A stretch of DNA of 64,000 bases, taken from Streptomyces sp. RPT161. Its GTDB lineage: Bacteria; Actinomycetota; Actinomycetes; Streptomycetales; Streptomycetaceae. The stretch lies in assembly GCF_027533845.1 (NCBI RefSeq), contig NZ_JAPZVN010000002.1, forward strand, positions 248,001 to 312,000, given 5' to 3'. Under the pieces are notes generated by a model. It did no database searches. It worked only from the letters and a program-made list of their open reading frames with translations, and was not told the DNA's origin. Of the stretch, positions 6,694 through 32,821 are shown one piece after another (the first letter of the stretch is position 1; each line of letters opens with the position of its first letter). A program made the translations under genes and the position numbers.

Positions 6694-6706
6694 TTCTGCG
6701 TGCCGG

Positions 6707-8849: not shown

Positions 8850-8886
8850 TTGTCAAATGTCAGCTGCTGACATAATCTCGCGCCCA
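8850..8886 (+). promoter_or_regulatory. MFS promoter with overlapping TetR-type operator; leaderless start
   Basis: -35 TTGTCA (8850) and -10 TAATCT (8873) are separated by 17 bp. The palindrome ATGTCAGC-T-GCTGACAT (8857-8873) fills the spacer and touches the -10, an ideal place for a repressor. The -10 ends 7 bases before the ATG at 8886, so transcription should begin at or one base before the start codon and give a leaderless mRNA. No ribosome site is visible. Confidence 0.72.
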
Positions 8887-10484
8887 TGAGCCAAGCACCC
8901 CTTGTCACTGACCAGCTGGCGGACCAGATACCGCCGCCCAGAAGGTCGCTGCGCGGCCATCCCTGGCTGACCCTGTTCTCGGTCGCCATCGGCGTGATGA
9001 TGGTGGCGCTGGACGCCACGATCGTCGCGGTCGCCAACCCGGCCATCCAGCAGCACCTCGGGGCCTCGCTCGCCGACGTGCAGTGGATCACCAACGGCTA
9101 TCTGCTCGCGCTGGCCGTCGCACTGATCACCGCGGGCAAGCTCGGCGACCGGTTCGGCCACCGCCAGACGTTCCTGATCGGCATCACCGGATTCGCCCTC
9201 ACCTCGGGCCTGATCGGCCTGTCCAGCAGCGTCGCCATGGTGATCGCGCTACGCGTCTTCCAGGGCCTGTTCGGCGCGTTGCTCCAGCCCGCCGCGCTCG
9301 GACTGCTGCGAGCCACCTTCCCGGCGGAGAAGCTGAACACCGCCATCGGAATCTGGGGTGCGGTCATCGGCGCCTCCACCGCCGCCGGGCCGATCATCGG
9401 CGGCCTGCTGGTGGAGCACGTCAACTGGCAGTCCGTGTTCTTCATCAACGTGCCGGTCGGCGCGATCGCGTTGGCGCTCGGCCTGCTGATCCTCAAGGAC
9501 ATCCGCGCGGAGAAGGCGCCCAAGTCCTTTGACATTCCCGGCATCCTGCTGCTGTCGGCCGGCATGTTCTGCCTGATCTGGGGTCTGATCAAGGCTCCCG
9601 CCTGGCACTGGAGCTCGTTGAGCACCTGGGCGTTCATCGGCGGGGCCGTTGTGCTGTTCGCGGTCTTCGCGGTGTGGGAGACCAGGTCCCGCGAACCGCT
9701 CATCCCGCTGGGACTGTTCCGCTCGGTGCCGTTGTCAGCGGGCACCGTCCTGATGGTGCTGATGGCGTTCGCCTTCATGGGCGGCCTGTTCTTCGTCACC
9801 TTCTACCTGCAGAACGTGCACGGCATGAGCCCGGTGTCCAGCGGCGTCCACCTGCTGCCGCTCACCGCGATGATGATCGTCGCCTCACCGGTGGCCGGTG
9901 CGCTGATCACCCGGTTCGGGCCGCGCATCCCGCTGGTCGGCGGCATGCTGTTCACCACCGCCGCCATGATCGGCATGTCCCGGCTGACCGCGGACAGCGG
10001 CACCGGCACCACCTCGCTGTGGTTCGCGCTGCTCGGTCTCGGACTCGCGCCGGTCATGGTGGGCGCCACCGAAGTCATCGTCGGCAACGCCCCGTTGGAG
10101 CTGTCCGGGGTGGCCGGCGGCCTTCAGCAGGCCGCGATGCAGGTCGGCGGCTCGCTGGGCACCGCCGTGCTCGGCGCGGTGATGGCGGCCAGGGTGGACA
10201 ACCAGCTGCCGGGCCACTGGGCCGCCGCCGGGCTGCCCGCGCTGCCGCCCGCGCAGGCGAAGCAGGCCGCCGACGCGGTGGCCGTCGGCGTGGCGCCGGT
10301 ACCGCCGCACGCGCCCGCCCCGCTGGCCGGCACCATCAGCCGCGTCGCACACGACACCTTCGTCTCCGGGATGGGCCTGTCCTTCACGGTGGCCGCGGTC
10401 GTCGCGGCGGTTGCCGCGGTGGTGGCCGTGTTCACCAAGCGGGGCTCCAACGCGGACGCCGCCGGCGGCGGGGTGCACATCTGA
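8886..10484 (+). CDS. MFS drug exporter, DHA2 (14-TM, QacA/EmrB-type)
   Basis: The protein has 532 residues, the usual length for 14-helix DHA2 proton antiporters. Family motifs include LDATIVAVANPAI (helix 1), GKLGDRFGHRQTFLIG (motif A) and GPIIGGLLVEHVNWQSVFFI (motif C and following). It should expel hydrophobic or cationic drugs, or an endogenous metabolite, across the membrane. It is divergent from its TetR regulator and predicted to be leaderless. A 20-bp hairpin follows. Confidence 0.92.
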   Translation: MSQAPLVTDQLADQIPPPRRSLRGHPWLTLFSVAIGVMMVALDATIVAVANPAIQQHLGASLADVQWITNGYLLALAVALITAGKLGDRFGHRQTFLIGITGFALTSGLIGLSSSVAMVIALRVFQGLFGALLQPAALGLLRATFPAEKLNTAIGIWGAVIGASTAAGPIIGGLLVEHVNWQSVFFINVPVGAIALALGLLILKDIRAEKAPKSFDIPGILLLSAGMFCLIWGLIKAPAWHWSSLSTWAFIGGAVVLFAVFAVWETRSREPLIPLGLFRSVPLSAGTVLMVLMAFAFMGGLFFVTFYLQNVHGMSPVSSGVHLLPLTAMMIVASPVAGALITRFGPRIPLVGGMLFTTAAMIGMSRLTADSGTGTTSLWFALLGLGLAPVMVGATEVIVGNAPLELSGVAGGLQQAAMQVGGSLGTAVLGAVMAARVDNQLPGHWAAAGLPALPPAQAKQAADAVAVGVAPVPPHAPAPLAGTISRVAHDTFVSGMGLSFTVAAVVAAVAAVVAVFTKRGSNADAAGGGVHI

Positions 10485-14936: not shown

Positions 14937-15086
14937 CGTGTTCACGCGGCGTGCTTCGTGGCGCGCCGCGTGAGCGCTCCCCAGCCGGGGAACCGGTCAC
15001 TAGGATCAGGGCGTTGATCCGGTTGTACGTATACGCACCAACGGGGGCAGCGCGCTCGACGTCCCCTCGGACCATTGGGAGGACTC

Positions 15087-15662
15087 GTGGGAGTCAGCCT
15101 CAGCAAGGGCGGCAACGTCTCGCTGACCAAGGAGGCGCCGAACCTCACGGCGGTGCAGGTCGGACTCGGCTGGGACGCCCGGACGACCACCGGCGCGGAC
15201 TTCGACCTGGACGCCAGCGCGCTGCTGACGAACGCGTCCGGAAGGGTCCTCACCGACCAGCACTTCGTCTTCTACAACAACCTCAAGAGCCCGGACGGTT
15301 CGGTCGAGCACACCGGGGACAACCTCACCGGTGAGGGTGAGGGCGACGACGAGGTCATCAACGTCAACCTGGCGCTGGTGCCGCAGGACGTGGACCGGGT
15401 CGTCTTCCCGGTCTCGATCTACGACGCGGAGAACCGCCAGCAGAGCTTCGGCCAGGTGCGCAACGCCTACATACGGGTCGTCAACCAGGCCGACAACCGC
15501 GAGTTGGCGCGCTACGACCTGACCGAGGACGCCTCCACCGAGACCGCCATGGTCTTCGGTGAGCTGTACCGCAACAACGGCGAGTGGAAGTTCCGTGCCA
15601 TCGGCCAGGGTTACGCGTCCGGCCTGCGCGGAATCGCCCAGGACTTCGGCGTCAACGTCTGA
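15087..15662 (+). CDS. terD: TerD-family stress protein, copy 1
   Basis: The protein has 191 residues from GTG 15087 with GGGAGG five bases upstream. It has the full TerD domain with the calcium-binding acidic loop GADFDLDASALL (about 32-43), the FVFYNNLKSPDGSVEHTGDN block and FRAIGQGYASGLRGIAQDFG at the C-terminus. TerD proteins are soluble, bind Ca2+, and act with the TerC membrane protein in responses to tellurite, oxidative or envelope stress; the molecular action is not settled. It is a tandem paralogue of the next gene, same length and nearly the same sequence. It is the first gene of terD-terD-terC-terA. Confidence 0.95.
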   Translation: MGVSLSKGGNVSLTKEAPNLTAVQVGLGWDARTTTGADFDLDASALLTNASGRVLTDQHFVFYNNLKSPDGSVEHTGDNLTGEGEGDDEVINVNLALVPQDVDRVVFPVSIYDAENRQQSFGQVRNAYIRVVNQADNRELARYDLTEDASTETAMVFGELYRNNGEWKFRAIGQGYASGLRGIAQDFGVNV

Positions 15663-15747: not shown

Positions 15748-16323
15748 ATGGGTGTCACGCTCGCCAAGGGGGGCAATGTCTCCCTCAGCAAGGAAGCGCC
15801 GAACCTCACACGCGTCATGATCGGCCTCGGCTGGGAGGCCAGGTCGACCACCGGCGCGGACTTCGACCTGGACGCCAGCGCCCTGCTGTGCTCGGGCGGC
15901 CGGGTGCTGGGCGACGAGTACTTCGTCTTCTACAACAACCTCAAGAGTCCCGAGGGTTCGGTCGAGCACACCGGCGACGAACTGGTCGGGGGCAGCGGTG
16001 GCGACGACGAGACGATAGTCGTGGACCTCACCAAGGTTCCGGACCGCGTCGACAAGGTGGTCTTCCCCGTCTCGATCTACGACGCCGAGGTCCGCTCGCA
16101 GGCCTTCGGGCAGGTGCGCAACGCCTACATCCGGGTCGTCAACCAGGCCGACGACCGAGAGTTGGCGCGCTACGACCTGACCGAGGACGCCTCCACGGAG
16201 ACCGCGATGATCTTCGGTGAGCTCTACCGGTACGGCGGTGAGTGGAAGTTCCGTGCGGTGGGCCAGGGGTACGCATCGGGCCTGCGGGGCATCGCCCTAG
16301 ACTTTGGGGTCAACGTTTCGTAA
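15748..16323 (+). CDS. terD: TerD-family stress protein, copy 2
   Basis: The protein has 191 residues from ATG 15748 (GGGGAGG upstream). It is a close paralogue of the preceding gene: identical GADFDLDASALL calcium loop, YNNLKSPEGSVEHTGDE and GLRGIALDFGVNVS end. Differences are concentrated in the loop after the calcium site (CSGGRVLGDEY) and in the region after the HTGD block. This pattern of paired TerD genes is usual in Streptomyces and suggests mixed oligomers. Only 85 bp separate the two genes. Confidence 0.95.
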   Translation: MGVTLAKGGNVSLSKEAPNLTRVMIGLGWEARSTTGADFDLDASALLCSGGRVLGDEYFVFYNNLKSPEGSVEHTGDELVGGSGGDDETIVVDLTKVPDRVDKVVFPVSIYDAEVRSQAFGQVRNAYIRVVNQADDRELARYDLTEDASTETAMIFGELYRYGGEWKFRAVGQGYASGLRGIALDFGVNVS

Positions 16324-16371
16324 AAATGCGTGCAGCCGCCTGCACCGGGACCGCCAAGGATTGGATTGCCA

Positions 16372-17523
16372 GTGCTCGTCAGAACGTTCGGCTGGTCATT
16401 TGCCATAACCGTCGCCGGGCTGGCGTTCGCGGGGATCCTTTGGGGCTGGCAGGGGCTCGCGGTCGTCGCGATTCTGTCGATCCTGGAGATCTCGCTCTCC
16501 TTCGACAACGCGGTGATCAACGCGGGAATCCTGCGGAAGATGAACGCCTTCTGGCAGAAGATCTTCCTCACCGTCGGCGTGCTGATCGCCGTCTTCGGCA
16601 TGCGGCTGGTCTTCCCGGTCGTCGTCGTCGCCATCACCGCCAGGATCGGGCCGATCGAGGCGGTCAGGGTGGCGGTGAACGATCCGAACCGCTACGAGCA
16701 CCTGGTCACCAGCGCCCATCCGGCGATCGCCGCGTTCGGCGGGGTGTTCCTGCTGATGATCTTCCTGGACTTCCTCTTCGAGGACCGGGACATCCACTGG
16801 ATGGCCTGGCTGGAGCGGCCGCTCGCCAGGGTCGGCAAGCTGGAGACCCTCCCGGTGATCGTCGCCCTGGTGGCACTGCTGGTCGCCGCGACAACGGTGG
16901 CCACCTCGGTCCCGCTGCAGGGCGGCGGTACGGCCGACAAGTCGGCGACGGTGCTGCTGGCCGGGGTCGCCGGACTGGTGACATACCTCGTGGTGGGCGG
17001 CGTCTCCGGCTACTTCGAGGGGCGCCTGGAGGAGGACGCCGAAGGCGCCGAGGCTGACGCGGAGGACGGCGAGCCGTCGGCCGCCCCCGCGCGGAAGGGA
17101 GCCTCGGCGATCGGCCTGGCCGGTAAGGCCGCGCTCTTCATGTTCCTCTACCTGGAGGTCATCGACGCCTCGTTCTCCTTCGACGGTGTCATCGGGGCGT
17201 TCGCCATCACCAACGACATCTTCATGATGGCGCTCGGCCTCGGCATCGGTGCGATGTACATCCGCTCGCTCACCGTCTTCCTGGTGCGCAAGGGCACGTT
17301 GGACGACTACGTGTACCTGGAACACGGCGCGCACTACGCGATCGGCGCGCTCGCGGTCATCCTGCTCGTCACCATCGAGCACGAGGTCAACGAGGTCGTC
17401 ACGGGTCTGGTGGGCGTCGTACTGATCCTCGCCTCGTTCCTGTCGTCCGTGGTACGCAACCGTCGACTCGGGGAAGGCTCCGAACAGTTGGAGGAACAGG
17501 CGGAGATCCCCTCGGGGGTCTGA
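16372..17523 (+). CDS. TerC/DUF475-family integral membrane protein
   Basis: The protein has about 383 residues from GTG 16372 (VLVRTFGWSFAITV), chosen because AAGGA lies 11 bases upstream; a GTG 14 codons earlier is possible. It has roughly nine membrane helices. Two inverted TerC-type repeats carry the acidic intramembrane motifs SFDNAVINAG (N-half) and SFSFDGVIGAFAIT (C-half). A charged Glu/Ala loop (EEDAEGAEADAEDGE) lies between them in the cytoplasm. TerC proteins pair with TerD at the membrane and have been linked to metal handling. Placement between TerD and TerA-like genes supports a complex. Confidence 0.9.
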   Translation: MLVRTFGWSFAITVAGLAFAGILWGWQGLAVVAILSILEISLSFDNAVINAGILRKMNAFWQKIFLTVGVLIAVFGMRLVFPVVVVAITARIGPIEAVRVAVNDPNRYEHLVTSAHPAIAAFGGVFLLMIFLDFLFEDRDIHWMAWLERPLARVGKLETLPVIVALVALLVAATTVATSVPLQGGGTADKSATVLLAGVAGLVTYLVVGGVSGYFEGRLEEDAEGAEADAEDGEPSAAPARKGASAIGLAGKAALFMFLYLEVIDASFSFDGVIGAFAITNDIFMMALGLGIGAMYIRSLTVFLVRKGTLDDYVYLEHGAHYAIGALAVILLVTIEHEVNEVVTGLVGVVLILASFLSSVVRNRRLGEGSEQLEEQAEIPSGV

Positions 17524-17556
17524 GCCTGGACGTTGGCCACGGCAGGGGAGGGCTAC

Positions 17557-18294
17557 ATGGCTGGCGTATGGCAGTTCCTGCGGGGCGGGGACAAGTCACC
17601 CCAGTTCGACATGGGGATCGCGCACACGGTCACGCTGACCAAGCGGAACCAGGTCGTCTCGCTCAACCACCAGGGTTCGGCCCACGGCAACCTGCGGGTC
17701 AACCTCACCTGGTCGATGCGGACTTCGGACTTCAACGACATGAACCGCGAACGAGGCGGTCTGTTCCGCAAGCCGTTCGGTCTGTTCAGGCCGGAGTTGG
17801 TGCAGGCGCAGGGGCCCGCGATGGTCAACGTCGACCTCGACCTTGCCTGTATGTACGAGCTGGCGGACGGCAAGAAGGGGGTCGTCCAGCCGCTGGGCAA
17901 CTTCCTGGGGTCTTTCAACGAGGCGCCGTACATACAGCTCAGCGGCGACGACCGGTTCGGGTCGGGCTCCGGCGAGACGATATACATCAACCTCGACCAC
18001 AAGGACCAGTTGCGCAGGCTGCTGGTGTTCGTCTACATCTACGACGGCACCCCGGCCTTCGACCGCACGCACGCGGTCGTCACGCTCTACCCCAGCGCGG
18101 GCCCGAGTATCGAGATCGCCCTCACCGAGCGTGCCCCGGAAGCACGTTCCTGCGCGGTGGTGCTGATCGAGAACAACAAGGGCGAACTGACCGTGCGGCG
18201 CGAGGTGAAGTACGTCTACGGCTTCCAGTCCGAACTGGACCGGCTCTACGGCTGGGGCCTGCAGTGGGGCCGCGGCTACAAGTCCAAGATCTGA
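17557..18294 (+). CDS. TerA-like tellurium-resistance/stress protein
   Basis: The protein has 245 residues from ATG 17557 with GGGGAGGG upstream. It is a diverged TerD-fold protein: [18 protein letters not shown] carries the acidic loop, followed by [18 protein letters not shown] and a C-terminal [21 protein letters not shown] block as seen in TerA/TerF proteins. The N-terminus [20 protein letters not shown] is unlike TerD. It ends the terD-terD-terC run and converges on the YGYP-tailed TerD gene 27 bp away. It probably acts with the other Ter proteins at the membrane. Confidence 0.85.
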
Positions 18295-18321: not shown

Positions 18322-19305
18322 CTACCGTCCGTTCTGGAACTGCGGCCCCTGCGGCGGCAACGTGACCGCCGGAACGGTCGGCGCCGCCGCCTGCTGGGCG
18401 ACGGTGGCCTGCTGCGGATATCCGTACGCCGGATGCGGCGGATAGCCGTAACCGCTCTGCTGCGCGGTGGCGGCAGGCTCAGCGGGTGGTGGGAAGCCAT
18501 AGCCGCCGGGCTGTTGCGGATAGCCGTAAGGCGTCTGCGGATACCCGTAGCCGCCTGCCTGGGCCGCCGGTTGCTGCGGATAGCCGTAGGCGGGCTGGGA
18601 GTTGGGCATGGGCGGCACCAGGGGCGGCAGCGGAACGCTGGGCTCCGCGGACGCCGGGGCGGTCCCCGTACCCGTTGTCGCAGCGGAAGCCTCCGCCGGG
18701 GGCGGTGCGGCGGAGGGCGACGCGCCCGTCGGCTCGGGTGCCGCGGGCGCCTGAGCCTCCGCGTCGTCCACCGCGATGCCGAACTCCGTTGCCAGCCCCA
18801 CCAGCCCGGTGGCGTACCCCTGCCCCAGCGCGCGGAACTTCCAGCCCGTACCGCGCCGGTACAGCTCACCGCAGATCATCGCGGTCTCGCCGCCGGTGTC
18901 CGGCGCGATGTCGAAGGCCGCTATGGGCTCCGCGTCCTCTTCCGCCGCGAGGTCGAGGAGCAGCAGCCGCAGCCCGGGAACGCTGCCGAACGTCCCGCCG
19001 TCCGCGGAGGCGGCCAGCACCACCCGGTCCACCGAGGGTTCGAGCCCGGCGAGTTCGACATCGACGCTGTCCGTCAGACCGCGCCCGTCGCGCCGCTTGG
19101 GGCGGTGCCTCACCAGACCGGACGGATGCCGCGGCTGGTTGTAGAAGACGAAGTCCGCGTCCGAGCGCACCCGTCCGTCGCCGCCCAGCAGCAGCGCCGA
19201 GGCGTCCACGTCGGGCACACCCGCGCCCGTGTTCCACCGCAGCACCGCCCGGACCGCGGACGCCTGAAGCGGGACGTTGGACCCCTTCACCATCGCGTGC
19301 GTCAT
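18322..19305 (-). CDS. TerD-domain protein with long Pro/Ala and YGYP-repeat tail
   Basis: The protein has 327 residues from ATG 19305 ([13 protein letters not shown]). Residues 1-180 are a TerD domain: [11 protein letters not shown] as a reduced calcium loop, [14 protein letters not shown], and [22 protein letters not shown]. The rest is low-complexity: Ala/Pro/Thr to about 225, then five YGYP units plus one YGFP, mostly as YGYPQQP, among Gln/Ala. Such aromatic-spaced tails favour self-association or surface contact. It converges on the TerA-like gene and is divergent from the PRTase operon. Confidence 0.85.
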
Positions 19306-19599
19306 ACCGGTAATCCTGCCCTCCCGCCCCACGGCCGGACAACGCGGGTGCGTGCCGAACGTGGTTCCGGTGGCCGGTCAGCGATTGATGCGGAGCCGGT
19401 CACCTGTTGATGCGAATCTGACACCCGATGGTCAAGACTTTGCCAAGAGCCTGCGTGCGATGATCATCCACGCGCGGCAGGGCGACGATCCGCCAACCAC
19501 CGCACACCAACTACCCGGGAGCTGTATGCGCCACCTTGGACCCGCCGCGCCACCCGCGCGGAACTCCGCGTTCCGCAACATCTCCGGTGACGAGCCCGC
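19306..19599. other. Divergent promoter region between the YGYP-TerD gene and the PRTase operon
   Basis: 294 bp with no credible gene. It must hold promoters in both directions. I see no convincing palindrome or -35/-10 pair. Confidence 0.5.
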
Positions 19600-20958
19600 A
19601 TGAGCACCGCCACCGCCGTCTGGACCGGCCGGTGGACCGCCGACCACCTCGGTGTCACGCTCACCGGCTCACCGGAACTGCCCAGGCTGCTCGGTCTCGC
19701 GGTACGGGTGAACGACAAGCGCGCCCACCTGCTGGTCTCCAACGTCCTGGGCAAGTACGTACCGCAGCGCCCGGACATCGTCTACGAGACCGGGCTGGCC
19801 CTCGGCCGCCGGGTGCTGGTGCTGCTCGGCGAGCAGAGCGCGTCGCGTGCAGTGGTCCTCGGCTACGCGGAGGCCGCGGCCGGGCTCGGCCAGTGCGTGG
19901 CGGACGGCCTCGGGTGCGCACCGTATCTGCACTCGACGCGTCGGCCGGTTCCCTCGGTCCCGCTCGTGGGGCGGTTCGAGGAGGAGCACAGCCACGCCGT
20001 ACGCCATCTGCTGCTGCCCGCAGATCCGGAACTGCTTGCCGGAGGCGGCCCGTTGGTACTCGTGGACGACGAACTGACCACCGGGAGGACCCTGCTCAAC
20101 ACGGTGCGGGCACTGCACGCCCGCTATCCGCGCGAACGCTACGTGGTGGCCGCGCTGGCCGACCTGCGCGGCCCGCTGGACCGCGCCCGGCTGGAGGGCC
20201 ACGCCGCCGAACTCGGCGTCCGCCTCGACGTGCTGGCACTCGCCACCGGCGAAGTTCGGCTACCCGCCGATGTGTTGACCCGTGCCGCGCACCTGGTGCG
20301 CCGCTACGGCACGGCGCCGCAGAGCACGGCCGCCTGGCCGCCGGGCACCGTGGCGCGCGTCGACCTCGGCTGGCCGCCCGGGCTGCCCGACGGCGGGCGG
20401 CACGGCTTCACGCCCCGGCACCGGGCCCTGCTCGAAGCGTCGCTACCAGGCATGGCGAAACGTCTCGGAAGCGCACTGCCGCGCGGTGCGCGCCGCGTAC
20501 TGGTGCTCGGCTGCGAGGAGTTGATGTACACCCCGCTACAGCTGGCGGCGGCGCTTGACGCCGACGTCGACGGCGTGGAGGTGTACTTCTCGTCCACCAC
20601 ACGCTCCCCGGCACTCGCCGTTGACGACCCCGGCTACCCACTGCACACCCGTATCGCCTTCCCCACGCACGACAACCCGTTGGACGGTGCGGGTGAACGT
20701 TATGCCTACAACGTGGCGCCGAGCGCCCACGGTGTGCGACGCTTCGACGCGATCGCCGTCGTCGTGGACTCCGCTGGCGACACCCCTCGCCTGACGGCGC
20801 CCGACGGACTGCTGTCCCGGCTCGCAGCCCACACCGACCGGCTGCTGCTCGCCGCCATCCCCTCGTACGTACCCGAACGGCAGAACCACTCCCACCGGCA
20901 CTCCACCTTCCCACGGAAGCACACCCCCCAACGGCAGGACCGGAACCATGCCCTGTGA
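19600..20958 (+). CDS. Phosphoribosyltransferase-TRSP domain protein of the Ter biosynthetic operon
   Basis: The protein has 452 residues. The N-terminal half is a PRTase_2-type phosphoribosyltransferase with a PRPP-loop VLVDDELTTGRTLL (about 150-163). The C-terminal half is the TRSP domain, including its name motif in FSSTTRSPAL. Comparative genomics of Ter systems (Anantharaman, Iyer and Aravind) placed such proteins with StiP and HAD enzymes in a predicted pathway for a nucleoside-like metabolite. The last about 25 residues are His/Arg/Gln-rich. The gene overlaps the next by 11 bp, so translation is probably coupled. Confidence 0.85.
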   Translation: MSTATAVWTGRWTADHLGVTLTGSPELPRLLGLAVRVNDKRAHLLVSNVLGKYVPQRPDIVYETGLALGRRVLVLLGEQSASRAVVLGYAEAAAGLGQCVADGLGCAPYLHSTRRPVPSVPLVGRFEEEHSHAVRHLLLPADPELLAGGGPLVLVDDELTTGRTLLNTVRALHARYPRERYVVAALADLRGPLDRARLEGHAAELGVRLDVLALATGEVRLPADVLTRAAHLVRRYGTAPQSTAAWPPGTVARVDLGWPPGLPDGGRHGFTPRHRALLEASLPGMAKRLGSALPRGARRVLVLGCEELMYTPLQLAAALDADVDGVEVYFSSTTRSPALAVDDPGYPLHTRIAFPTHDNPLDGAGERYAYNVAPSAHGVRRFDAIAVVVDSAGDTPRLTAPDGLLSRLAAHTDRLLLAAIPSYVPERQNHSHRHSTFPRKHTPQRQDRNHAL

Positions 20959-22111
20959 ACCCCTGCGCGGCCCGGCGTTCTCCAGCTACGCCCCCGACGA
21001 GGTCGGCTGGCTGCTCAAGGACCTCTCCGACGTGGCGCTCGAACGGCCGATCGAGGAGCGCGAGGAGGCGGTGCAGAACGGCGCGCACTACGCCGAGTCG
21101 CTGCCCGTCGAGTACCAGCCGAGCGCCGAGTACCAGCGGTTGTTCCGCACCGCGCTCGCCCGGTCCGCGGAGCGGATCGCCCGGGCCGTCGGCGTCGTCA
21201 CCGAGACGGTGCTCAGCGAGCGCTCACCGGCCCCGGTACTGGTCTCACTGGCCCGCGCCGGAACGCCGGTCGGCGTACTGATGCGCCGCTGGGCGCAGCA
21301 GGCACACGCTCTGGAGCTGCCGCACTACGCCGTGTCGATCGTGCGCGGCCGGGGCATCGACACCACCGCGCTGCGCTGGATCGCGGAGCGGCATGATCCG
21401 ACGGACGTGGTCTTCGTCGACGGCTGGACCGGCAAGGGCGCCATCTGCCGTGAACTCGGCGCCGCGCTCGCCGGGTTGCGGCGCTCCGGTTGGCACGAGG
21501 AGTTCGATCCGCGGCTCGCGGTGCTCGCCGACCCCGGCCGCTGTGTGGACACCTTCGGCACCCGCGAGGACTTCCTGATCCCCTCGGCCTGTCTGAACTC
21601 AACGGTGACGGGGCTGGTCTCACGTACCGTGCTGCGGCCGGACCTGATCGGGCCCGGCCAGTTCCACGGTGCCAAGTTCTACCGGGAGTTGGCGGACGTG
21701 GACGCCTCCGGGCTGTTCCTGGACACCGTGACGAAGCGTTTCGGCGATGTGGTGGACACCGTCGTCACCGAGGTCAAGGAGGCGGGCGAGCGGGACCGCA
21801 CCCCCACCTGGGCGGGCTGGGCCGCGGTCCAGCGGATCAGCGCGGAGTACGGGATCGGCGAGGCCAACCTGGTCAAGCCCGGAGTCGGCGAGGCCACCCG
21901 GGTGCTGCTGCGCCGGGTGCCCTGGCGGATCCTGGTACAGCGCGACGCCGGGCCGGAGTTGGACCACATACGGCTGCTGGCCGACCAGCGCGGGGTGCCG
22001 GTCGAGGAGGTGGACGACGCGATCGGCCCGTACCGCTGCGTGGGCCTTGTGCACCCGAGGTACACCGCGGGGGCGGTCGGCGCGGACGGCAGGGCGGTGG
22101 TGCGCGGATGA
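20948..22111 (+). CDS. StiP-family PRTase-like protein with PELOTA-type C-terminus
   Basis: The protein has 387 residues. The region about 90-170 is PRTase-fold (VLVSLARAGTPVGVLMRRW, then VVFVDGWTGKGAI), matching the family annotated as 'cysteine protease StiP'. The last about 75 residues (GEATRVLLRRVPWRILVQ, DHIRLLADQRGVPVEEVD) look like the PELOTA RNA-binding domain found in this family. Comparative work treats it as an enzyme or ligase of the Ter-linked nucleoside-like pathway; no biochemical role is proven. It overlaps the upstream gene by 11 bp and the downstream gene by ATGA. Confidence 0.82.
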   Translation: MPCEPLRGPAFSSYAPDEVGWLLKDLSDVALERPIEEREEAVQNGAHYAESLPVEYQPSAEYQRLFRTALARSAERIARAVGVVTETVLSERSPAPVLVSLARAGTPVGVLMRRWAQQAHALELPHYAVSIVRGRGIDTTALRWIAERHDPTDVVFVDGWTGKGAICRELGAALAGLRRSGWHEEFDPRLAVLADPGRCVDTFGTREDFLIPSACLNSTVTGLVSRTVLRPDLIGPGQFHGAKFYRELADVDASGLFLDTVTKRFGDVVDTVVTEVKEAGERDRTPTWAGWAAVQRISAEYGIGEANLVKPGVGEATRVLLRRVPWRILVQRDAGPELDHIRLLADQRGVPVEEVDDAIGPYRCVGLVHPRYTAGAVGADGRAVVRG

Positions 22112-22938
22112 CGTTCACCCCCGGCGGTACGTTGATCGCGGCCGACCTCGACCGCACCCTCATCTACTCGGCACAGGCGCTCGCCCTCGCCATGCCCGAC
22201 GACCAGGCGCCGCGGCTGCTGTGCGTGGAGGTGTGCCACGGCAGGCCGCTCAGCTACCTCACCGAGCGCGCCGCGGCGCTGCTGGCGGAGCTGGCCGCCG
22301 TCACCGAGTTCGTCCCCGTCACCACCCGCACCCGGCAGCAGTACCGCAGGGTGCATCTGCCGGGCACCGAACCGCGGTTCGCGATCTGCGCCAACGGCGG
22401 GCACATCCTGGTCGACGGCCGCACCGATCGGGACTGGCACCACCAGGTGCGGCGCTCACTGGAGTCGGTGTGCGCCTCGCTCGGCGAGGTGCTCGACCAG
22501 CTGACGCGGGCCGCCGACCGCGACTGGCTGCACAACGTACGGGTGGCCGAGGACCTGTTCGCCTACCTGGTGGTGGACCGGCAGCGGCTGCCGGAGGGCT
22601 GGTTGAAGGAGCTGTCCGGCTGGGCGGAGGCCCGCGGCTGGACCGTCTCGCTCCAGGGGCGCAAGGTCTACGCGGTGCCCAAGCCGCTGACCAAGTCCGC
22701 CGCCCTGGCCGAGGTGGTACGGCGCACCGGCGCGGCCCGGGTACTGGCCGCCGGGGACTCGCTGCTCGACACCGACCTGCTGCTCGCCGCCGACAAGGGC
22801 TGGCGCCCCGGGCACGGCGAACTCGCCGACGCCGGTTGGCAGGCCGCGCACGTCACCGCCCTCGACGCGGTCGGCGCCGCGGCGGGGGAGGGGATCCTCC
22901 GGCGGATGGCGGCGTGGGTGGAGGGCACGGGGTTATAG
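22108..22938 (+). CDS. HAD-superfamily phosphatase of the Ter operon
   Basis: The protein has 276 residues; its ATG overlaps the StiP stop (ATGA). HAD motifs are visible: I, DLDRTLI (D14 nucleophile, D16 acid/base); II, PVTTRTRQQY; III, the lysine in KPLTKSAALAEV; IV, AAGDSLLDTDLLLAAD. The C2-type cap with FAICANGGHILVDG resembles sucrose-phosphatase/Cof-like HADs. It presumably dephosphorylates the product of the two preceding PRTase-fold enzymes. The ATP-grasp and aldolase genes that often complete such operons are absent here. Confidence 0.85.
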   Translation: MTFTPGGTLIAADLDRTLIYSAQALALAMPDDQAPRLLCVEVCHGRPLSYLTERAAALLAELAAVTEFVPVTTRTRQQYRRVHLPGTEPRFAICANGGHILVDGRTDRDWHHQVRRSLESVCASLGEVLDQLTRAADRDWLHNVRVAEDLFAYLVVDRQRLPEGWLKELSGWAEARGWTVSLQGRKVYAVPKPLTKSAALAEVVRRTGAARVLAAGDSLLDTDLLLAADKGWRPGHGELADAGWQAAHVTALDAVGAAAGEGILRRMAAWVEGTGL

Positions 22939-22943: not shown

Positions 22944-22982
22944 CGTGGTGTACCCGGGACCTATGGCACCGGGTACACCACG
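22944..22982. terminator. Bidirectional hairpin formed partly from coding sequence
   Basis: A 14-bp perfect stem (CGTGGTGTACCCGG and its complement) with an 11-base loop lies between the convergent HAD and kinase genes. The right arm encodes the kinase's last residues (VVYPV), so the terminator is built into the gene's 3' end. Confidence 0.75.
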
Positions 22983-23605
22983 CGGGTGCAGTTGGCCCTG
23001 GACCGCTCCACGCGTTCGGCGTTGGACCGCTCGCTGGCCGCGATGAACTCCCGCGCCTGCTCCCGCGTGCGGCCACCGCGCAGATGCCTGCGCAGCAACC
23101 GCTCCTCGCGCACCCTGGGCGGAGTGTCCACGTACCACAGCGCGTCCAGCAGTTCGCGCACCTCACACCAGCCCTCGCCGTCGTCGGCGAGGTAGTTGCC
23201 CTCGGTGATCACCAGCCGGGCGGTCGGCGGCACGACCAGACCGGCCGCGACCGGCTCCTCCAGCCGACGGTCGAAGTCCGGTACGTAGACCGGGTGTTGC
23301 GGTACGTTCCGTAGTCGCCGCAGCAGGTGTACATAGCCGTGGACATCAAAGGTGTCCGGAGCGCCCTTGCGCCCGCGCCGTCCCAGCCGGTCCAACTGCG
23401 CGGTGGACAAGTGAAATCCATCCATCGGGACATATCCCACCGAATCCACGCCAAGCCGCTGGGTCGCACCGCGCACCAGCCGCTGGGCCAGCGTCGACTT
23501 GCCCGCCGCGGGCGCACCCGCCAGCCCCAACAGCGCCCTGCGGCCTGCCATGCTGGGCACCAGGGCCACCGCCGCATCGATCAAGCTGTCAGAAACGGTC
23601 GACAT
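22961..23605 (-). CDS. P-loop nucleoside/nucleotide kinase family protein (uridine kinase-like)
   Basis: The protein has 214 residues. Walker A is GLAGAPAAGKSTLAQ (about 28-42). The segment YVPMDGFHLSTAQLDRLG is the substrate-binding region of the PRK/uridine kinase/pantothenate kinase group, and VITEGNYLADDGEGW holds the catalytic acidic region. The basic lid RLLRRHLRGGRTREQAREF is near the end. It phosphorylates a sugar, nucleoside or related alcohol; the true substrate cannot be read from sequence. It is convergent with the Ter operon, so partnership with that pathway is possible but unproven. Confidence 0.82.
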   Translation of the reverse strand: MSTVSDSLIDAAVALVPSMAGRRALLGLAGAPAAGKSTLAQRLVRGATQRLGVDSVGYVPMDGFHLSTAQLDRLGRRGRKGAPDTFDVHGYVHLLRRLRNVPQHPVYVPDFDRRLEEPVAAGLVVPPTARLVITEGNYLADDGEGWCEVRELLDALWYVDTPPRVREERLLRRHLRGGRTREQAREFIAASERSNAERVERSRANCTRVVYPVP

Positions 23606-27025: not shown

Positions 27026-27097
27026 GGGCGCATAGCTCAGCGGTAGAGCGCTGCTCTTACAAAGCAGATGTCGGCGGTTCGAATCCGTCTGTGCCCA
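27026..27097 (+). tRNA. tRNA-Val (anticodon UAC)
   Basis: Full cloverleaf: acceptor GGGCGCA/TGTGCCC, D arm GCTC-AGCGGTA-GAGC, anticodon arm CTGCT-CTTACAA-AGCAG with anticodon TAC (reads GUA), and T arm GGCGG-TTCGAAT-CCGTC. Discriminator A is followed by CC but then G, so CCA is not encoded. It is the integration target of the AICE: the 3' part from the anticodon loop onward is repeated at 41903-41948. Confidence 0.97.
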
Positions 27098-27101
27098 CCG
27101 A
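27056..27101 (+). repeat. attL: 46-bp direct repeat inside tRNA-Val
   Basis: It starts CTTACAAAGCAGATG in the anticodon loop and ends CCCACCGA just past the tRNA. It is identical over 46 bp to 41903-41948. The integrase gene lies next to it, as usual for AICEs. Confidence 0.95.
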
Positions 27102-27110
27102 CTCACTTAC

Positions 27111-27164
27111 ACGATGAAGGCCCAGGTCAACCGGCATGTATCCGGAAGCCTGGGCCTTGATCGT
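27111..27164. terminator. Hairpin just inside attL
   Basis: ACGATGAAGGCCCAGG pairs with CCTGGGCCTTGATCGT (one mismatch) around a 22-base loop. It lies between the tRNA and the integrase stop and can end both transcripts. It shares GGCCCAGGTCA with the chromosomal hairpin beyond attR. Confidence 0.75.
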
Positions 27165-27202
27165 TTCCCCTCGCGGGACCGGCGGGGGCCGGGCCGTGCC
27201 AC

Positions 27203-28336
27203 TTACGTGCCAGATAGCTTGCCGCGCCCCCGCTTTGCCTGGCGGATCTGCTCGTCTACGTGGTCGGCGATGGCGTGGTCACGGCCGTTGACCAGGTGCT
27301 GGTAGATCAGCGCGGCACGCACCGACGAATGCCCCATGCGGTGCATGAGTTCACGGGTCGTGGCGCCACCGGTCGCGGCGAGGGTGTTGCCGGTGTGCCG
27401 GAGGTCGTGGAAGTGAACGTCCGACAGACCAGCGGCGCGCAGCGCAGGAAGCCACACCCGGCGGAAGTTGTTCCGACGCAGCCGTCCGCCGCGTTGGCCG
27501 ACGAAGACCAGCCCGTTCCGGCCCGGTTCGGCGTACAGGTCGAGGTGAGTCGTCAACTCTTCGACCAGCGAGGCAGGAAAAGCCACGGACCGAATACCGG
27601 CGTTGCTTTTCGGCGTCTTGATGACCAAGCCCTCTGCCCTTGTCTCCGCTTGAGCCCGTCGCACAGAGATCGTACGGCGCTCCAGATCCACATCGTGACG
27701 CTGCAACGCCGCCAGTTCGCCGAATCGCAGGCCCGTGAACGCGGCGAGGAGCACCAGGACGCGGAAGCATGCGGGCACCTTGTCGGCTAGGCGGTAGACC
27801 TCCGGCACGGTGAGGTATGGCCGCTCGGCTGTCTTGGCCGCACCGGCACCCTTCACCCGGCACGGGTTGCGCTGGATCAGCCCGTCGTCCACGGCAGTGT
27901 TCATGATGGCGCGGAGAATCTGATAAGCCTTCACCACGGTCGTCTCGCCGATCCCTTTGTCGAGCAGTGCGGCACGCCACTGCCTGACGTGCGGCGTGGT
28001 GATCTTCGAGATGGGGGAGCGGTCGAAGGCCGGGAGGATGTGGAGCCGCAGGGCACTCTCGTTGCGCTCGCGGGTCGTTGCGGCGTAGCCACGCTCTTTG
28101 AGCCACGCCGTGGCGTATTCGCCGAAGGCGATCTCCTCATGTGGGTCCTGCCAGCGCCCCTCCACGATCTCGGCCTCTTTGCGCACAAGCCAGACCTCGG
28201 CGTCCCGTTGCGTCGGGAAGGTCTTGTCTGCGTTACGGAGCTGACCGTCCGGGCCCGGATAGCGAGCCTGGAAGCGCCCGGACGGAAGCCGTCGTACTGA
28301 GCCGAAGCGACGGCGCTTGCCACGTGCGTTGGGCAT
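27203..28336 (-). CDS. int: Tyrosine recombinase (AICE integrase)
   Basis: The protein has 377 residues. It has an N-terminal arm-binding AP2-like part (about 10-60), a SAM-like core-binding domain (about 70-155) and a C-terminal catalytic domain. The full active set is visible: R204 (TGLRFGE), K243 (TPKS), H310-x-x-R313 (HFHDLRHT), H336 (MGHSSV) and nucleophile Y345. It catalyses site-specific integration into, and with Xis excision from, tRNA-Val. Its start and the xis stop overlap by one base (TGATG), so the two are translationally coupled. Confidence 0.96.
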   Translation of the reverse strand: MPNARGKRRRFGSVRRLPSGRFQARYPGPDGQLRNADKTFPTQRDAEVWLVRKEAEIVEGRWQDPHEEIAFGEYATAWLKERGYAATTRERNESALRLHILPAFDRSPISKITTPHVRQWRAALLDKGIGETTVVKAYQILRAIMNTAVDDGLIQRNPCRVKGAGAAKTAERPYLTVPEVYRLADKVPACFRVLVLLAAFTGLRFGELAALQRHDVDLERRTISVRRAQAETRAEGLVIKTPKSNAGIRSVAFPASLVEELTTHLDLYAEPGRNGLVFVGQRGGRLRRNNFRRVWLPALRAAGLSDVHFHDLRHTGNTLAATGGATTRELMHRMGHSSVRAALIYQHLVNGRDHAIADHVDEQIRQAKRGRGKLSGT

Positions 28337-28548
28337 CAGGCCACCGCCCCGAAGCGTGCCCGGCTGATCGACACGGGCTGGACGGTGTTCGCTTCGATAA
28401 AGGCCCGCAGTGCAGCCTCAGGGATGCGGACGTGCCGACCGACCTTGACGAAGGTGATGCGCCGCTCGGCGATCAGGCGACGCGGGAACCGCTCGGAGGT
28501 GCCGAGCAGTTCGGCGACCTGGGCGACGGACAGGTACCGGTCAGCCAT
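28336..28548 (-). CDS. xis: Excisionase (Xis), MerR-like helix-turn-helix
   Basis: The protein has 70 residues: MADRYLSVAQVAELLGTSER begins the winged-helix excisionase domain, followed by RRLIAERRITFVKVGRHVRI. It bends att DNA and steers the integrase toward excision. It sits directly upstream of int (one-base stop/start overlap), and its own start overlaps the end of the replication gene by 8 bp, as in pSAM2 and relatives. Confidence 0.93.
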   Translation of the reverse strand: MADRYLSVAQVAELLGTSERFPRRLIAERRITFVKVGRHVRIPEAALRAFIEANTVQPVSISRARFGAVA

Positions 28549-29911
28549 GGGTGGGTTCTCCTTCCGTTCCTGGGGAGGGCGCGATCGAAGCGGCGAGCCA
28601 TTCTTCGCCGGGGGTGAGGCCGGTTCCGGCGAAGGTCCAGTGGGCGAGGACCAGCGTCGTCTCGCCGGTTTCGGCGTCCGTTGGCCGGTTGTCGGTGTCG
28701 CAGCGGGCCGTGATGGCTTGGGCGCGTCGCCATTCGGCGCGGGCGGTGCGGAGGGCGCCGAGGGTGGTGGAGTAGCGGCGGGTCTTGGTGGAGAAGTGGC
28801 CGCGGAAGCCGAGCATGTGCGCCCAGGCGCGGAGCCGGAGATCCTCCAACTCCCGCCGCCCGCCGAGCGCCCAGGCGGTGCGGATCATGCGTCGGGCGTG
28901 GTCGCTGATGGCGAGGCGGGCCAGCTCGGCGAGGAACTTGATCGGCCGATCCAGGGTGCCGGTCGCCGACTCGGCGCCCTTGGTGGCGTACTTGGCGATG
29001 TAGGCGGCGACCGCGCGATCGGTCAGCTCGGCTTGGCCGTTGAACTCGGCGCTGCGGATGGTGCGTACGTCGAGTTGGCGGCCGAAGGCGAAGACGTGTT
29101 GCCGCCCGTCAAGGACTGGGCCGGTGATGCGTGCGGTGGTAGCGGCGGCGCGGATGGCGTCGGTCAGCAGCTCGGCGGTGGCCCAGGCCGGGGGCGGGGT
29201 GGTGCCGCCGTCGGGGCCGTCGAGGCGGATGACGGCGTGGAAGTGGACCAGGCCGCGCCGCTGGTACTCGGCGACCTTCGCGAAGCTGACCCGGGCGTAC
29301 CGGCGGAAGGCGCGTTGGGTCAGCCCTGCCCGCTTGGCGACCTCACGGCGCAGGTAGATGGAGAAGCGCCGCCACAGCGCACCGGCGTGGGCGTTCCAGA
29401 GAACCGCGGCTTCGTAGTCGTACGACTCCGGGTCGAGCGGCGTACCCAACTCCGGCGCGTCGGCAGGGTGGGCGGCTCCGCAGCGGCAGCGGCCGGAGTC
29501 CGGGCGGTTGTGGACTGGGCCGAAGCTGGGCGCGGTGAAGGTGGCGAAGACGCGGGGGTGTGTGGCGACTTGCTCAGGGGTGCCCTTGCCTCCGCGCAGT
29601 CCGGCGGTGATGAGCTGGTAGGTGTCGCGGCGGTAGACCTCGGCGCAGGCCGGGCAGCGGGTCACGCGGCGGTTGTTGCAGCGGACCAGGAGGTGACCGG
29701 CGGGAAGCTGGTCAGAGGCGATGTGGTGGAGGAGTGGGCCGATCTCGCCGGTGGCGGTGTCCAGCGCGTACTCGGAGCGGTGGCCGTCGAGGCGGATCGG
29801 GTTGGTGCAGCCGCCCAGGCCGGAGAGCTGGCGTACCAGCGCGGGCATGGTGCCGAGCGAGGCCAGCATGCCGAGTTCCGGCAGCGGGGGCGGGGTGGCC
29901 CGGGTGATGAT
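28541..29911 (-). CDS. RepSA-like rolling-circle replication initiator
   Basis: From the first ATG (29869) it has 442 residues, but that ATG has no ribosome site. AAAGGAG lies just before in-frame ATC codons at 29911 and 29908, and the extra residues (TRATPPPLPELG) look like a normal N-terminus, so an AUC start is likely. It shows the HUH motif H209-F-H211 (LVHFHAVIRLD) and the tyrosine region VAAYIAKYATKG (Y290/Y294), numbering from the ATG. Zinc-like pairs CPAC and CRCG are near residues 72 and 128. It nicks the element's double-strand origin. The next element gene upstream is spdD. Confidence 0.9.
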   Translation of the reverse strand: MITRATPPPLPELGMLASLGTMPALVRQLSGLGGCTNPIRLDGHRSEYALDTATGEIGPLLHHIASDQLPAGHLLVRCNNRRVTRCPACAEVYRRDTYQLITAGLRGGKGTPEQVATHPRVFATFTAPSFGPVHNRPDSGRCRCGAAHPADAPELGTPLDPESYDYEAAVLWNAHAGALWRRFSIYLRREVAKRAGLTQRAFRRYARVSFAKVAEYQRRGLVHFHAVIRLDGPDGGTTPPPAWATAELLTDAIRAAATTARITGPVLDGRQHVFAFGRQLDVRTIRSAEFNGQAELTDRAVAAYIAKYATKGAESATGTLDRPIKFLAELARLAISDHARRMIRTAWALGGRRELEDLRLRAWAHMLGFRGHFSTKTRRYSTTLGALRTARAEWRRAQAITARCDTDNRPTDAETGETTLVLAHWTFAGTGLTPGEEWLAASIAPSPGTEGEPTHG

Positions 29912-30000
29912 GGTGATCTCCTTTGCGGCTCAGGTCGTGGAGGGGTGGGCTGCCGGGGCGGCGATGCTTGGCGGTATCGGGCCGCCCCGGCAGTTGTTGA

Positions 30001-30285
30001 TCAGCGGTGGCGCGGGGTGCCGAGCAGGGAGCGCAGGACCACGGCGGCGACCGCCACGGACACGGCCCCGATGGCGACAGCGGTCACCAGGGCGGTCAGC
30101 ACGATGCCGACCAGGACGACGGCGGCGACCGCACCGACGCCGAGCCCGACAACGGAGGCGATCCCGCGGGTCGGAGGCGCCGGGATGTGGGCGCAGGGGC
30201 AGGCCGACTCATGACCGTGCACCACGGCGGTTGTCGTGTGGGTGCGCGGCTCGGGAAGTGCGGGGTAGGTGGGTCGGAGCAGCAT
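30001..30285 (-). CDS. SpdD-like plasmid-spread membrane protein
   Basis: The protein has 94 residues from ATG 30285 (GAAAGGA upstream). The polar N-terminus MLLRPTYPALPEPRTH contains a CPCAH motif, followed by two adjacent hydrophobic helices (about 43-66 and 67-85) rich in Val/Ala/Gly. Size, composition and place between rep and tra match SpdD of Streptomyces conjugative plasmids, which is needed for plasmid spreading within the recipient mycelium. Confidence 0.8.
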   Translation of the reverse strand: MLLRPTYPALPEPRTHTTTAVVHGHESACPCAHIPAPPTRGIASVVGLGVGAVAAVVLVGIVLTALVTAVAIGAVSVAVAAVVLRSLLGTPRHR

Positions 30286-30298
30286 GGCGCTGGTCCTT

Positions 30299-30493
30299 TC
30301 AGCGGTGGGTGCCGTTGACGACGCCGACGCCCGTGCGGGTGCCGCTGTCGATGGCGGGGGCAAGGAAGGTGTGGGCGAGGTAGAAGCCGAACAGGGCGAT
30401 CACGACGGCGACCCACAGGCGGATGTTCATGAACTTGATCGCGGCCCAGGCGACGACGCCGAGCACGACGACCAGGGGCAGGCTGACGGTCAC
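30299..30493 (-). CDS. Small membrane protein of the AICE transfer operon
   Basis: The protein has 64 residues from GTG 30493 (VTVSLPLVVVLGVVAWAAIK), with GAAAGG upstream. It has two hydrophobic stretches (about 3-20 and 26-42) and a short polar tail ending VVNGTHR. It lies 13 bp before spdD in the same operon. Small proteins like this are regular parts of AICE spread modules; the individual role is unknown. Confidence 0.7.
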   Translation of the reverse strand: MTVSLPLVVVLGVVAWAAIKFMNIRLWVAVVIALFGFYLAHTFLAPAIDSGTRTGVGVVNGTHR

Positions 30494-30503
30494 TGGGGGC
30501 CTT

Positions 30504-30695
30504 TCAGCGGACGGGGCAGCGGTGGGTACGGGCCGCCAACTCGGCGGCGGCGCGGGAGTCGTAGTCGCAGGAGAAGCCGCAGCGCGGCGCGGTGCAGGCA
30601 GCGGTGTGCTTCTCGCGGCCTCGGCTGTCGTAGGCGGTGCCGACCTGGACCGGGCCGATGCAGACGACGTTGCGGAAGCGGCGGTTGGCGGACAC
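30504..30695 (-). CDS. AICE mobile-element transfer protein (small, Cys-rich)
   Basis: The protein has 63 residues. The conserved pattern is CIGPVQVGTAYDSRGREKHT, then C..PRCGFSCDYDSRAAAELAARTHRC, which suggests a small zinc-binding unit. Such about 60-residue proteins occur between the DUF2637 and SpdD genes in many pSAM2-like elements and are annotated as transfer proteins. Biochemical role is unknown. Confidence 0.75.
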   Translation of the reverse strand: MSANRRFRNVVCIGPVQVGTAYDSRGREKHTAACTAPRCGFSCDYDSRAAAELAARTHRCPVR

Positions 30696-30708
30696 GGGAG
30701 GACTCCTT

Positions 30709-31359
30709 TCAGAGCTGGGCGGCGATGGCTTCGGCGAGCGGCGCGGGGACGCCGAGCTGGGCGCGCAGGGTCGGGGTGTCGATGGACCGCCCGGTGCGTT
30801 CCTGGTGGGCGGTGGCGAGCTTGCGGGCGTGTTCGACCAGGGCGGCGGGTACCGCGGGCGTGGTCGGTTGGTCGGCCGGTTCCGGCGGTGCCGGAGCGGG
30901 AGTGCCGCCGTCCGCCTCGGCGCGAGGAGCCGTTTCTTCCTCGTCGGTCAGGTCCAACTGGGCTGTCAAGGCGGGCGGTTGGATGTGTCGAGGTGTCGTG
31001 GCGGTGTGCGCGAGGAGTGTTCCGCCGAGGAAGGCGACCGCGGGCCATCCGGCGACGAGGATGCGCAGCCAGGCCGGGACGGCGCCCAAGTCGAGAAGTC
31101 CGGCGGTGGCCACGTTCGCCCCGAGCGAGGCGGCAAGCGCGATCACGAACCAGCACCACCCGGCCGCCTTGGACGAGCCAGTTCGCAGCCGCCGCCAGGC
31201 CGCGACGAGTAGCAGGTCGACCGAGACCGGGTAGGCCCAGGCTTTCCAGCCGTTCTGTCCGGCCGCCGAGGCGATGTCGTGCAGGTGCGCGAAGGACAAC
31301 GCGGCGGCGATGACCGCCTGGACGAGCACCGCGTCAACGCGGGCCAGGTGAGCGCGCAT
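30709..31359 (-). CDS. DUF2637-type membrane protein (SpdB-like)
   Basis: The protein has 216 residues. Four hydrophobic segments (about 8-30, 42-55, 65-90, 98-118) are followed by an acidic Pro/Ala linker and a small C-terminal helical part (LVEHARKLATAHQERTGR, then TLRAQLGVPAPLAEAI) that looks like a short DNA-binding wing. This is the architecture of DUF2637/SpdB proteins, which assist intramycelial spreading with the Tra pump. It is located directly downstream of tra. Confidence 0.82.
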   Translation of the reverse strand: MRAHLARVDAVLVQAVIAAALSFAHLHDIASAAGQNGWKAWAYPVSVDLLLVAAWRRLRTGSSKAAGWCWFVIALAASLGANVATAGLLDLGAVPAWLRILVAGWPAVAFLGGTLLAHTATTPRHIQPPALTAQLDLTDEEETAPRAEADGGTPAPAPPEPADQPTTPAVPAALVEHARKLATAHQERTGRSIDTPTLRAQLGVPAPLAEAIAAQL

Positions 31360-31444
31360 GGCGCGGCCTCCTTCCTGGTTCAGGCATGGCGGGGGTAGGG
31401 ACGTGGCGTGAGGCGGTCACGCCGACCGTTGGAGGGGGAGGGGG

Positions 31445-32821
31445 TTAGTCGGTCACCGGTAGCGGCTTGACCAGCGACACCGGGCGGTCAACAGGCTTGA
31501 CAGGCACGGCGGGCCGGAACGGATCAAGCGCGGGAATGTCCGGCACGAGGTGAGCCGTCTCGGCACACACCGCCGCAGCGTCGCCGAGCGACAGATACGG
31601 GGTGCGGATGCGGGACCAGCCGCCGGAGGTATCCCCAGCGACCGCCAGGCCAGGCGACTCGGGCGCGATGGCGCAGGCCGCGCCGACCGCTTCGGGTGCG
31701 ATGTCGCCGAGCGCCATCTTGGCCGAGGCTTCGTCGTTCACCCGGTGGCAGACCCGACCGGTGAGCTGGGCGCGGAGCATCGTGGCACCCTTGCCCAACT
31801 CGGCACCGAACCGCTGACCGCACACCTCCAGGTAGATGCCTGCGGCACGGCCGAGTTGGGCGAGCCGGATGAGCTGGGTGACCATCTCGTCCCGCCGTTC
31901 CTCGTCCTTCTTCGTGGCGACCAGGAACAGCTCGGCCACCTCGTCCACCACCAGCACGACCGGTACGGGGCGTTCGGCCTCGGGCAGGCCCCAGATGTCC
32001 GAGGTGATCTCCTCATCCGGCGTACCCGGCGCGATGCCCTGCCGCGCCTTGATCAGGTCGTACCGGTCCTCCATCAACTCGACCAGCACCGGCAGCAGTT
32101 CAGCCGCCTGCTCCGGATCGGTCGTCAGCGCCGAGAGCCGAGGAGCGAACGGCGCCAACTCCACGCCCCGCTTGCAGTCGATCCCCACCAGCGCCACCGG
32201 TTGGGGAGCGAGCCCGGCGACCACGTGCCGCAGGAACATCGACTTGCCCGACAGCGTGGCACCGAGGGTGAGTTGGTGGGGTATCGCGCGGTAGTCCCGC
32301 ACGAACGCCGTCGCGTCCTCCCGCAGCGCCACCGGCACCTTCAGGAAGCCGCCGCCGGTCTTGCGCGGCATGCGCACTTTCCGCAGCACATCGAACCCGA
32401 CCAGCCGCAGCTCGACCACGCCCGGCTTGACCACGGTGACGTACACGGCGTGAACGCCCCAGGCGTGCCGCAGCCGTTCGGCCGAGGCCGCCACGTCCGC
32501 CGGTTCCTGCCCCGGAGCGAGCCGCAACCTCAGCCGCATCCCGGTCGAGGTCGGCCGGATCATCCCGCGCCGTGGCGGGACGGGCCGCACCTCCCGCCGG
32601 GTGGTCGCCTGAACCAGCAGAGCCCGGAGCCTGGACGGCTGGACGGTCAGCCCGCACGCGTCCATGGTCGAGCCGTACGAGCCCAGCAGCTTCGCCGTCG
32701 AGACCGGCAGGCCGAGCGTGCACCAGTAGGCGGCCGGGTGCCGGGCCCGGAGGTAGGCAGCCCCGCCACCGAACGCGGCGACCGGACCACCCACCTCCAC
32801 CAACGTCATCAGATCGGACAC
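31445..32821 (-). CDS. FtsK/SpoIIIE-type DNA translocase (Tra)
   Basis: The protein has 458 residues. Walker A is GATLSGKS (187-194) and Walker B is VVLVVDEVAELF (D293-E294). GRVCHRVNDEASAKMALGD is the conserved FtsK-like segment further on. Only a short hydrophobic N-terminal stretch is seen. In pSAM2-type elements one such hexameric pump moves double-stranded DNA between mycelia, recognising short clt repeats through a C-terminal winged helix. The C-terminus here is short (ends KPLPVTD). Confidence 0.93.
   Translation of the reverse strand: MSDLMTLVEVGGPVAAFGGGAAYLRARHPAAYWCTLGLPVSTAKLLGSYGSTMDACGLTVQPSRLRALLVQATTRREVRPVPPRRGMIRPTSTGMRLRLRLAPGQEPADVAASAERLRHAWGVHAVYVTVVKPGVVELRLVGFDVLRKVRMPRKTGGGFLKVPVALREDATAFVRDYRAIPHQLTLGATLSGKSMFLRHVVAGLAPQPVALVGIDCKRGVELAPFAPRLSALTTDPEQAAELLPVLVELMEDRYDLIKARQGIAPGTPDEEITSDIWGLPEAERPVPVVLVVDEVAELFLVATKKDEERRDEMVTQLIRLAQLGRAAGIYLEVCGQRFGAELGKGATMLRAQLTGRVCHRVNDEASAKMALGDIAPEAVGAACAIAPESPGLAVAGDTSGGWSRIRTPYLSLGDAAAVCAETAHLVPDIPALDPFRPAVPVKPVDRPVSLVKPLPVTD

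Follow-up and report, generated by a model that had tools for sequence, protein, structure and literature searches.

A Ter-linked operon of Streptantibioticus that lacks its aldolase and carries changed PRTase residues

Comparative genomics by Anantharaman, Iyer and Aravind reportedly describes gene clusters linked to Ter genes that usually include an ATP-grasp ligase and a citrate-lyase-like aldolase. We checked this description of the operons solely by way of citing papers and annotated plasmids. To our knowledge, neither a product nor a reaction order has been described for the Ter-linked biosynthetic operon.

The operon and its neighborhood

We analyzed a stretch of 64,000 nucleotides (hereafter, the window), which lies within a 763-kb contig of a 7.69-Mb genome. 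A first-pass annotation had proposed that the window contains a three-gene, Ter-linked nucleoside-like operon, and the coordinates, overlaps and Pfam domains agree with this proposal. On the forward strand, a PRTase_2 gene with a TRSP domain (19600–20958; PF15609 PRTase_2, 7e-61, and PF12500 TRSP, 4e-35, both far above the cut-off) is followed by a StiP-PELOTA gene (20948–22111; PF11202 StiP, 6e-104; PF15608 PELOTA_1, 2e-33) and a HAD phosphatase gene (22108–22938). The overlaps between neighbors are 11 bases (PRTase/StiP) and 4 bases (StiP/HAD). The HAD protein, which is trehalose-phosphatase/MPGP-like, matched a solved trehalose phosphatase (2e-18) and had no match in Pfam. With PRTase_2-TRSP, StiP-PELOTA, HAD and a TerD/TerC link all present, the locus belongs to the proposed class. 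PADLOC returned no match for the Ter, PRTase, StiP or HAD proteins. In fold comparison, StiP is a second PRTase-fold protein, resembling PyrR and HGPRT (Z about 10), with a C-terminal L7Ae/L30e-like domain; among the matches listed, the meaningful ones were PyrR/HGPRT-type PRTases and L7Ae, so that the Pfam/NCBI name 'cysteine protease' is unsupported by the fold.

The gene order upstream is shared with Streptomyces: aceE, DUF3052, peroxiredoxin, two TerD genes (15075–15662 and 15748–16323, forward strand; start of the latter set by eye at MGVTL), a TerC/DUF475 membrane protein (16330–17523, forward strand), a 'TerA-like' gene (17533–18294, forward strand) and a divergent TerD-domain gene with a long C-terminal tail (18322–19332, reverse strand). 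Pfam matches confirmed the TerD and TerC neighbors named in the first-pass annotation; its TerA label found no Pfam or NCBIfam match, and the synteny of this gene is kept in Streptomyces. The intergenic segment between the divergent TerD gene and the operon (19333–19525) is presumed from the gene layout to be a regulatory region shared by both.

The link of the operon to the Ter genes is no more than a matter of proximity. Other Actinomycetes and rhizobial plasmids carry this module with no TerD close by, and in six actinobacterial aldolase-PRTase-StiP-HAD operons no TerD/TerC homologue was detected in the stretch, which indicates that the module is separable from the Ter genes. Downstream, the next gene is convergent and kinase-like, as had been noted (22961–23605, reverse strand; nucleoside/nucleotide kinase family NF006743). 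This kinase gene occupies the same place in aldolase-bearing Actinacidiphila; accordingly, gene association gives no reason to regard it as a substitute for the aldolase, and we rejected this candidate. Near the operon locus, positions 27026–32821 contain tRNA-Val (tac), an adjacent tyrosine integrase, a RepSA (pSAM2-type) replication initiator and an FtsK/SpoIIIE protein, and constitute an integrated actinomycete conjugative element (AICE).

Loss of the aldolase gene and its relic

The ATP-grasp ligase and the aldolase had both been noted as missing from the operon, and both are indeed absent. No match to PF15632 (ATP-grasp_Ter) exceeded the cut-off in the operon or in the whole 7.69-Mb genome, where the weak ATP-grasp matches were carbamoyl-phosphate synthase and a generic ATP-grasp protein. 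However, no ATP-grasp was recognized in the sampled actinobacterial neighborhoods of the operon either. The core in Actinomycetes is aldolase-PRTase-StiP-HAD; the missing ATP-grasp is ordinary, an ATP-grasp not being defining in this phylum, and only the absence of the aldolase is unusual here.

Neither the operon nor the rest of the genome contains a full-length aldolase (PF15617, C-C_Bond_Lyase), and the same holds genome-wide for all of the three Streptantibioticus species examined, namely, that of the window and its congeners S. ferralitis and S. rubrisoli (the type species, Streptantibioticus cattleyicolor, was not among the genomes searched). Genome-wide profile matches in the window's genome were weak and generic, those to the aldolase family being HpcH/CitE proteins; the suggestion that the missing enzymes are encoded elsewhere was therefore rejected, and for the aldolase it also fails in the two congeners. 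An artefact of a contig break was likewise rejected, since the operon lies inside its contig, synteny continues to either side of it, and the three species agree.

The surveys placed this absence in context. StiP was found in 104 of 119 genomes of the order, and in 103 of these 104 the PRTase is immediately preceded by a full-length aldolase; the only exception was the window's genome, with the aldolase present in 103/103 other Streptomycetaceae. In the class, a full StiP occurred in 68 of 297 genomes and a full aldolase in 66 of the 68. One exception is again the window's genome, and the other is an assembly of 94% completeness whose operon runs into the end of a contig. Contig-edge cases apart, the aldolase was directly upstream of the PRTase in all actinobacterial loci viewed. 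Within the family, 14 of 395 genomes had no full aldolase. Three of them are Streptantibioticus, which keep StiP and PRTase; 10 others also lacked StiP, and the PRTase was missing from all nine tested for it (for G492, an aldolase-less genome of 71% completeness, the test covered StiP alone). In another genus of Streptomycetaceae (G392), StiP-PELOTA stands alone at the same synteny (L176, 8793–10079; 50% identity to that of the window), the aldolase, PRTase and HAD genes having gone from this locus, and no PRTase_2 was found in the genome. A 76%-complete assembly (G448, L177) contains frameshifts in the aldolase, StiP and TerD genes that are probably sequencing errors.

Immediately upstream of the PRTase gene, positions 19526–19603 of the forward strand contain a 25-codon open reading frame, MRHLGPAAPPARNSAFRNISGDEPA, whose first approximately 20 codons correspond to the start of the aldolase (MRHFGH[LI]APEVRxxLFHxEP). 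The first-pass annotation had overlooked this frame. Of the 3,069 frames in the window that begin with a start codon, it gave the best score when compared with a profile built from 74 aldolase N-termini, and shuffling yielded an equally good score in 1 to 3 of 100,000 trials, depending on the species (1 for the window). Orthologous relics (L040 and L041) make the frame common to all three Streptantibioticus species, and its TGA stop overlaps the ATG of the PRTase. The relic measures 66, 78 or 90 bases, the differences being multiples of three. The ribosome-binding site that once belonged to the aldolase gene (GGGAG, 19517–19521, forward strand) gives an anti-SD duplex of –6.6 kcal/mol in all three species, compared with –2.2 to –4.2 kcal/mol for the PRTase's own upstream sequence, and its sequence, GGGAGCTGTATG, recurs unchanged ahead of the aldolase of L080, which the PRTase tree shows to be the nearest relative. 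As judged from these sequence features, the frame is a scar of an aldolase gene deletion. Translation of the PRTase may be coupled to the relic frame, with which the weaker anti-SD pairing of the PRTase is consistent.

The three remaining genes are under purifying selection in Streptantibioticus. By simple Nei-Gojobori counts, dN/dS within the genus was 0.27–0.32 for the PRTase, 0.19–0.24 for StiP and 0.22–0.24 for HAD, and the medians in Streptomyces pairs were 0.29, 0.18 and 0.29, respectively. Given this similarity, relaxed selection across the trio was rejected. Among class-universal positions, HAD keeps 48/48 and StiP 122/123.

PRTase residues in aldolase-less lineages

The PRTase of all three Streptantibioticus species carries H53Y, T92A and T94A at positions that are class-invariant elsewhere, compared with one such change in StiP and none in HAD. 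The PRPP loop (VLVDDE..TG.T) is kept. The predicted fold (pLDDT 91) matches that of adenine PRTases, with a Z of 14.3 and 174 residues superposed at an rmsd of 3.3. On the basis of secondary structure, strand order and sequence analogy to APRT, residues 89–92 are placed in the loop that follows the first core strand and that we take to be the pyrophosphate loop of type I PRTases, and position 53 presumably lies in the loop ahead of the preceding helix.

We scanned, without bias toward any position, the columns that are invariant in aldolase-bearing operons, and H53 ranked first. In raw counts, position 53 is His in 52 of 52 aldolase-bearing operons and is replaced in five of six aldolase-less lineages; T92 is Thr in 55 of 55 and Ala in three of six, and came next after H53 when the ranking is confined to columns where both groups show real substitutions. 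Proteobacterial operons that possess an aldolase have Val at position 94, which makes T94 a less specific marker. T333 and D342 deviated in proteobacterial and phage rows only, where D342 is a gap column.

The replacements at position 53 are Tyr in Streptantibioticus, Acinetobacter phage vB_AbaM_ME3 and Bradyrhizobium (B. elkanii/barranii), Phe in Rhizobium etli/phaseoli and Asp in Rhizobium T1473; Mesorhizobium has no full aldolase in the stretch, yet keeps His53. The first two cases were noticed post hoc, and the rhizobial cases were checked as a prediction. Our search of phage records found no aldolase in ME3, and none of the rhizobial cases had a full aldolase in the stretch, B. barranii retaining a stub of approximately 60 residues; outside Streptantibioticus and ME3, absence refers to the local stretch or to plasmids. 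In a plasmid-wide search the PRTase was present on 34 Rhizobium plasmids, and Rhizobium was not among the ten leading genera of the aldolase tally. In 33 Rhizobium plasmids, the majority of them from Phaseolus, the PRTase-StiP-HAD trio is >99% identical; on p42d of R. etli CFN 42 it occupies positions 6001–9257 of locus L201. A scan of viral contigs yielded only two new operons, both with an aldolase and His53. An unannotated faecal scaffold filed as 'Bacteriophage sp.' (MT836648), which contains StiP, PRTase, aldolase and three TerD-like genes, may be bacterial in origin.

On a tree built without the H53 and T92 columns, the aldolase-less state needs four separate losses, each of which includes a member without His53. 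The four origins would be Streptantibioticus, phage ME3, Bradyrhizobium and a Rhizobium/Mesorhizobium clade. The same otherwise invariant residue changed in separate aldolase-less lineages, which ties the PRTase to the aldolase as a neighboring step.

Interpretation and comparison with known systems

From what is established directly, namely, the absence of the aldolase, its relic, the selection on the trio, the residue changes and their repeated association, the following course of events can be proposed. In a Streptantibioticus ancestor, the aldolase gene at the head of the standard actinobacterial aldolase-PRTase-StiP-HAD operon would have been almost entirely deleted. Its ribosome-binding site, its start and approximately 20 codons would have stayed behind as a short leader that ends in a stop overlapping the ATG of the PRTase, and the rest of the operon would still be translated by coupling via this leader. 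The other three enzymes would persist as a functioning module. The PRTase would bind PRPP and pass ribose-5-phosphate to an acceptor, StiP may act as a second PRTase-fold enzyme or as a ligand or RNA binder, and the HAD protein would strip a phosphate. If the aldolase normally makes or consumes the compound at the PRTase step, its loss would be expected to leave the PRTase with a different or unprocessed acceptor and to give a shorter or different product, and the lost His53 and Thr92/Thr94 may mark a retuned acceptor/pyrophosphate site. We assign a probability of about 0.5 to this reading, in which the acceptor site was retuned after the loss of the aldolase step to give a shortened route. 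The earlier suggestion that the pathway is shortened and yields another product gains support from the purifying selection and the repeated residue change, and the acceptor and product themselves are guesses. More tentatively, and at odds well short of even, the aldolase-less operons might represent a second Ter-linked nucleotide pathway, reached at least four times independently, in which position 53 (His to Tyr/Phe) is a specificity switch and the output is a different, shorter nucleotide signal.

Three other explanations were weighed. Residues 53 and 92 might have formed a docking surface for the aldolase and have drifted freely once it was gone, with the substrate unchanged. The adjacency of the aldolase and PRTase genes in Actinomycetes and the confinement of the changes to aldolase-less lineages would fit such a surface; however, aromatic residues prevail among the replacements at position 53 (Tyr, Tyr, Tyr, Phe), which are hence non-random, T92 is placed in the pyrophosphate loop, and the proteobacterial aldolase gene adjoins StiP instead of the PRTase. 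We consider docking unlikely. It is rather improbable that a generic HpcH/CitE-type lyase encoded elsewhere took over the aldolase step with the same product, because Streptomyces also has weak PF15617 paralogues and keeps the operon aldolase nonetheless, and the changes at H53 and T92 would be left unexplained, even though the window's genome encodes at least two generic PF03328 HpcH/HpaI proteins that might serve.

The remaining explanation is that the operon is decaying, the aldolase being the first gene out and the others following. Family members that lack the whole operon or retain StiP alone would represent later stages, and the StiP proteins of the genus are related to one another by identities toward the bottom of the range seen in matched Streptomyces pairs. 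Nevertheless, the frames are intact in three species, dN/dS is normal and the universal residues of HAD and StiP are kept as described above, which makes decay quite an unlikely account. An operon that has lost one enzyme and is otherwise under selection constitutes a natural knock-out separating the pathway steps, and residues 53 and 92 are named as mutation targets by which the pathway becomes testable with purified enzymes.

Among known systems, the operons of Streptomyces and Actinacidiphila (for example, L111 and L053) resemble that of the window in synteny, gene order, the PRTase-TRSP, StiP-PELOTA and HAD domains and the lack of an ATP-grasp; in contrast, an aldolase heads them and their PRTase has His53, Thr92 and Thr94. 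The plasmid operons of Klebsiella (L182), Salmonella (IncHI2, L192) and Pseudomonas putida (L184) similarly place PRTase, HAD and StiP beside Ter genes, but possess an ATP-grasp and an HpcH aldolase, follow the order PRTase-HAD-StiP-HpcH and keep His53. The stretches of R. etli p42d, Bradyrhizobium (L199) and Mesorhizobium (L196) share PRTase, StiP and HAD without a full aldolase nearby, and no ATP-grasp was found in them; they differ in that Ter genes were not found in the stretch and that position 53 is Phe, Tyr and His, respectively. The Ter operon of phage ME3 (L183) likewise lacks aldolase and ATP-grasp and has Tyr53 in its PRTase, with the genes in the order PRTase-HAD-StiP, whereas it resides in a phage genome, its PRTase is only 24% identical to that of the window, and Thr92 is kept.
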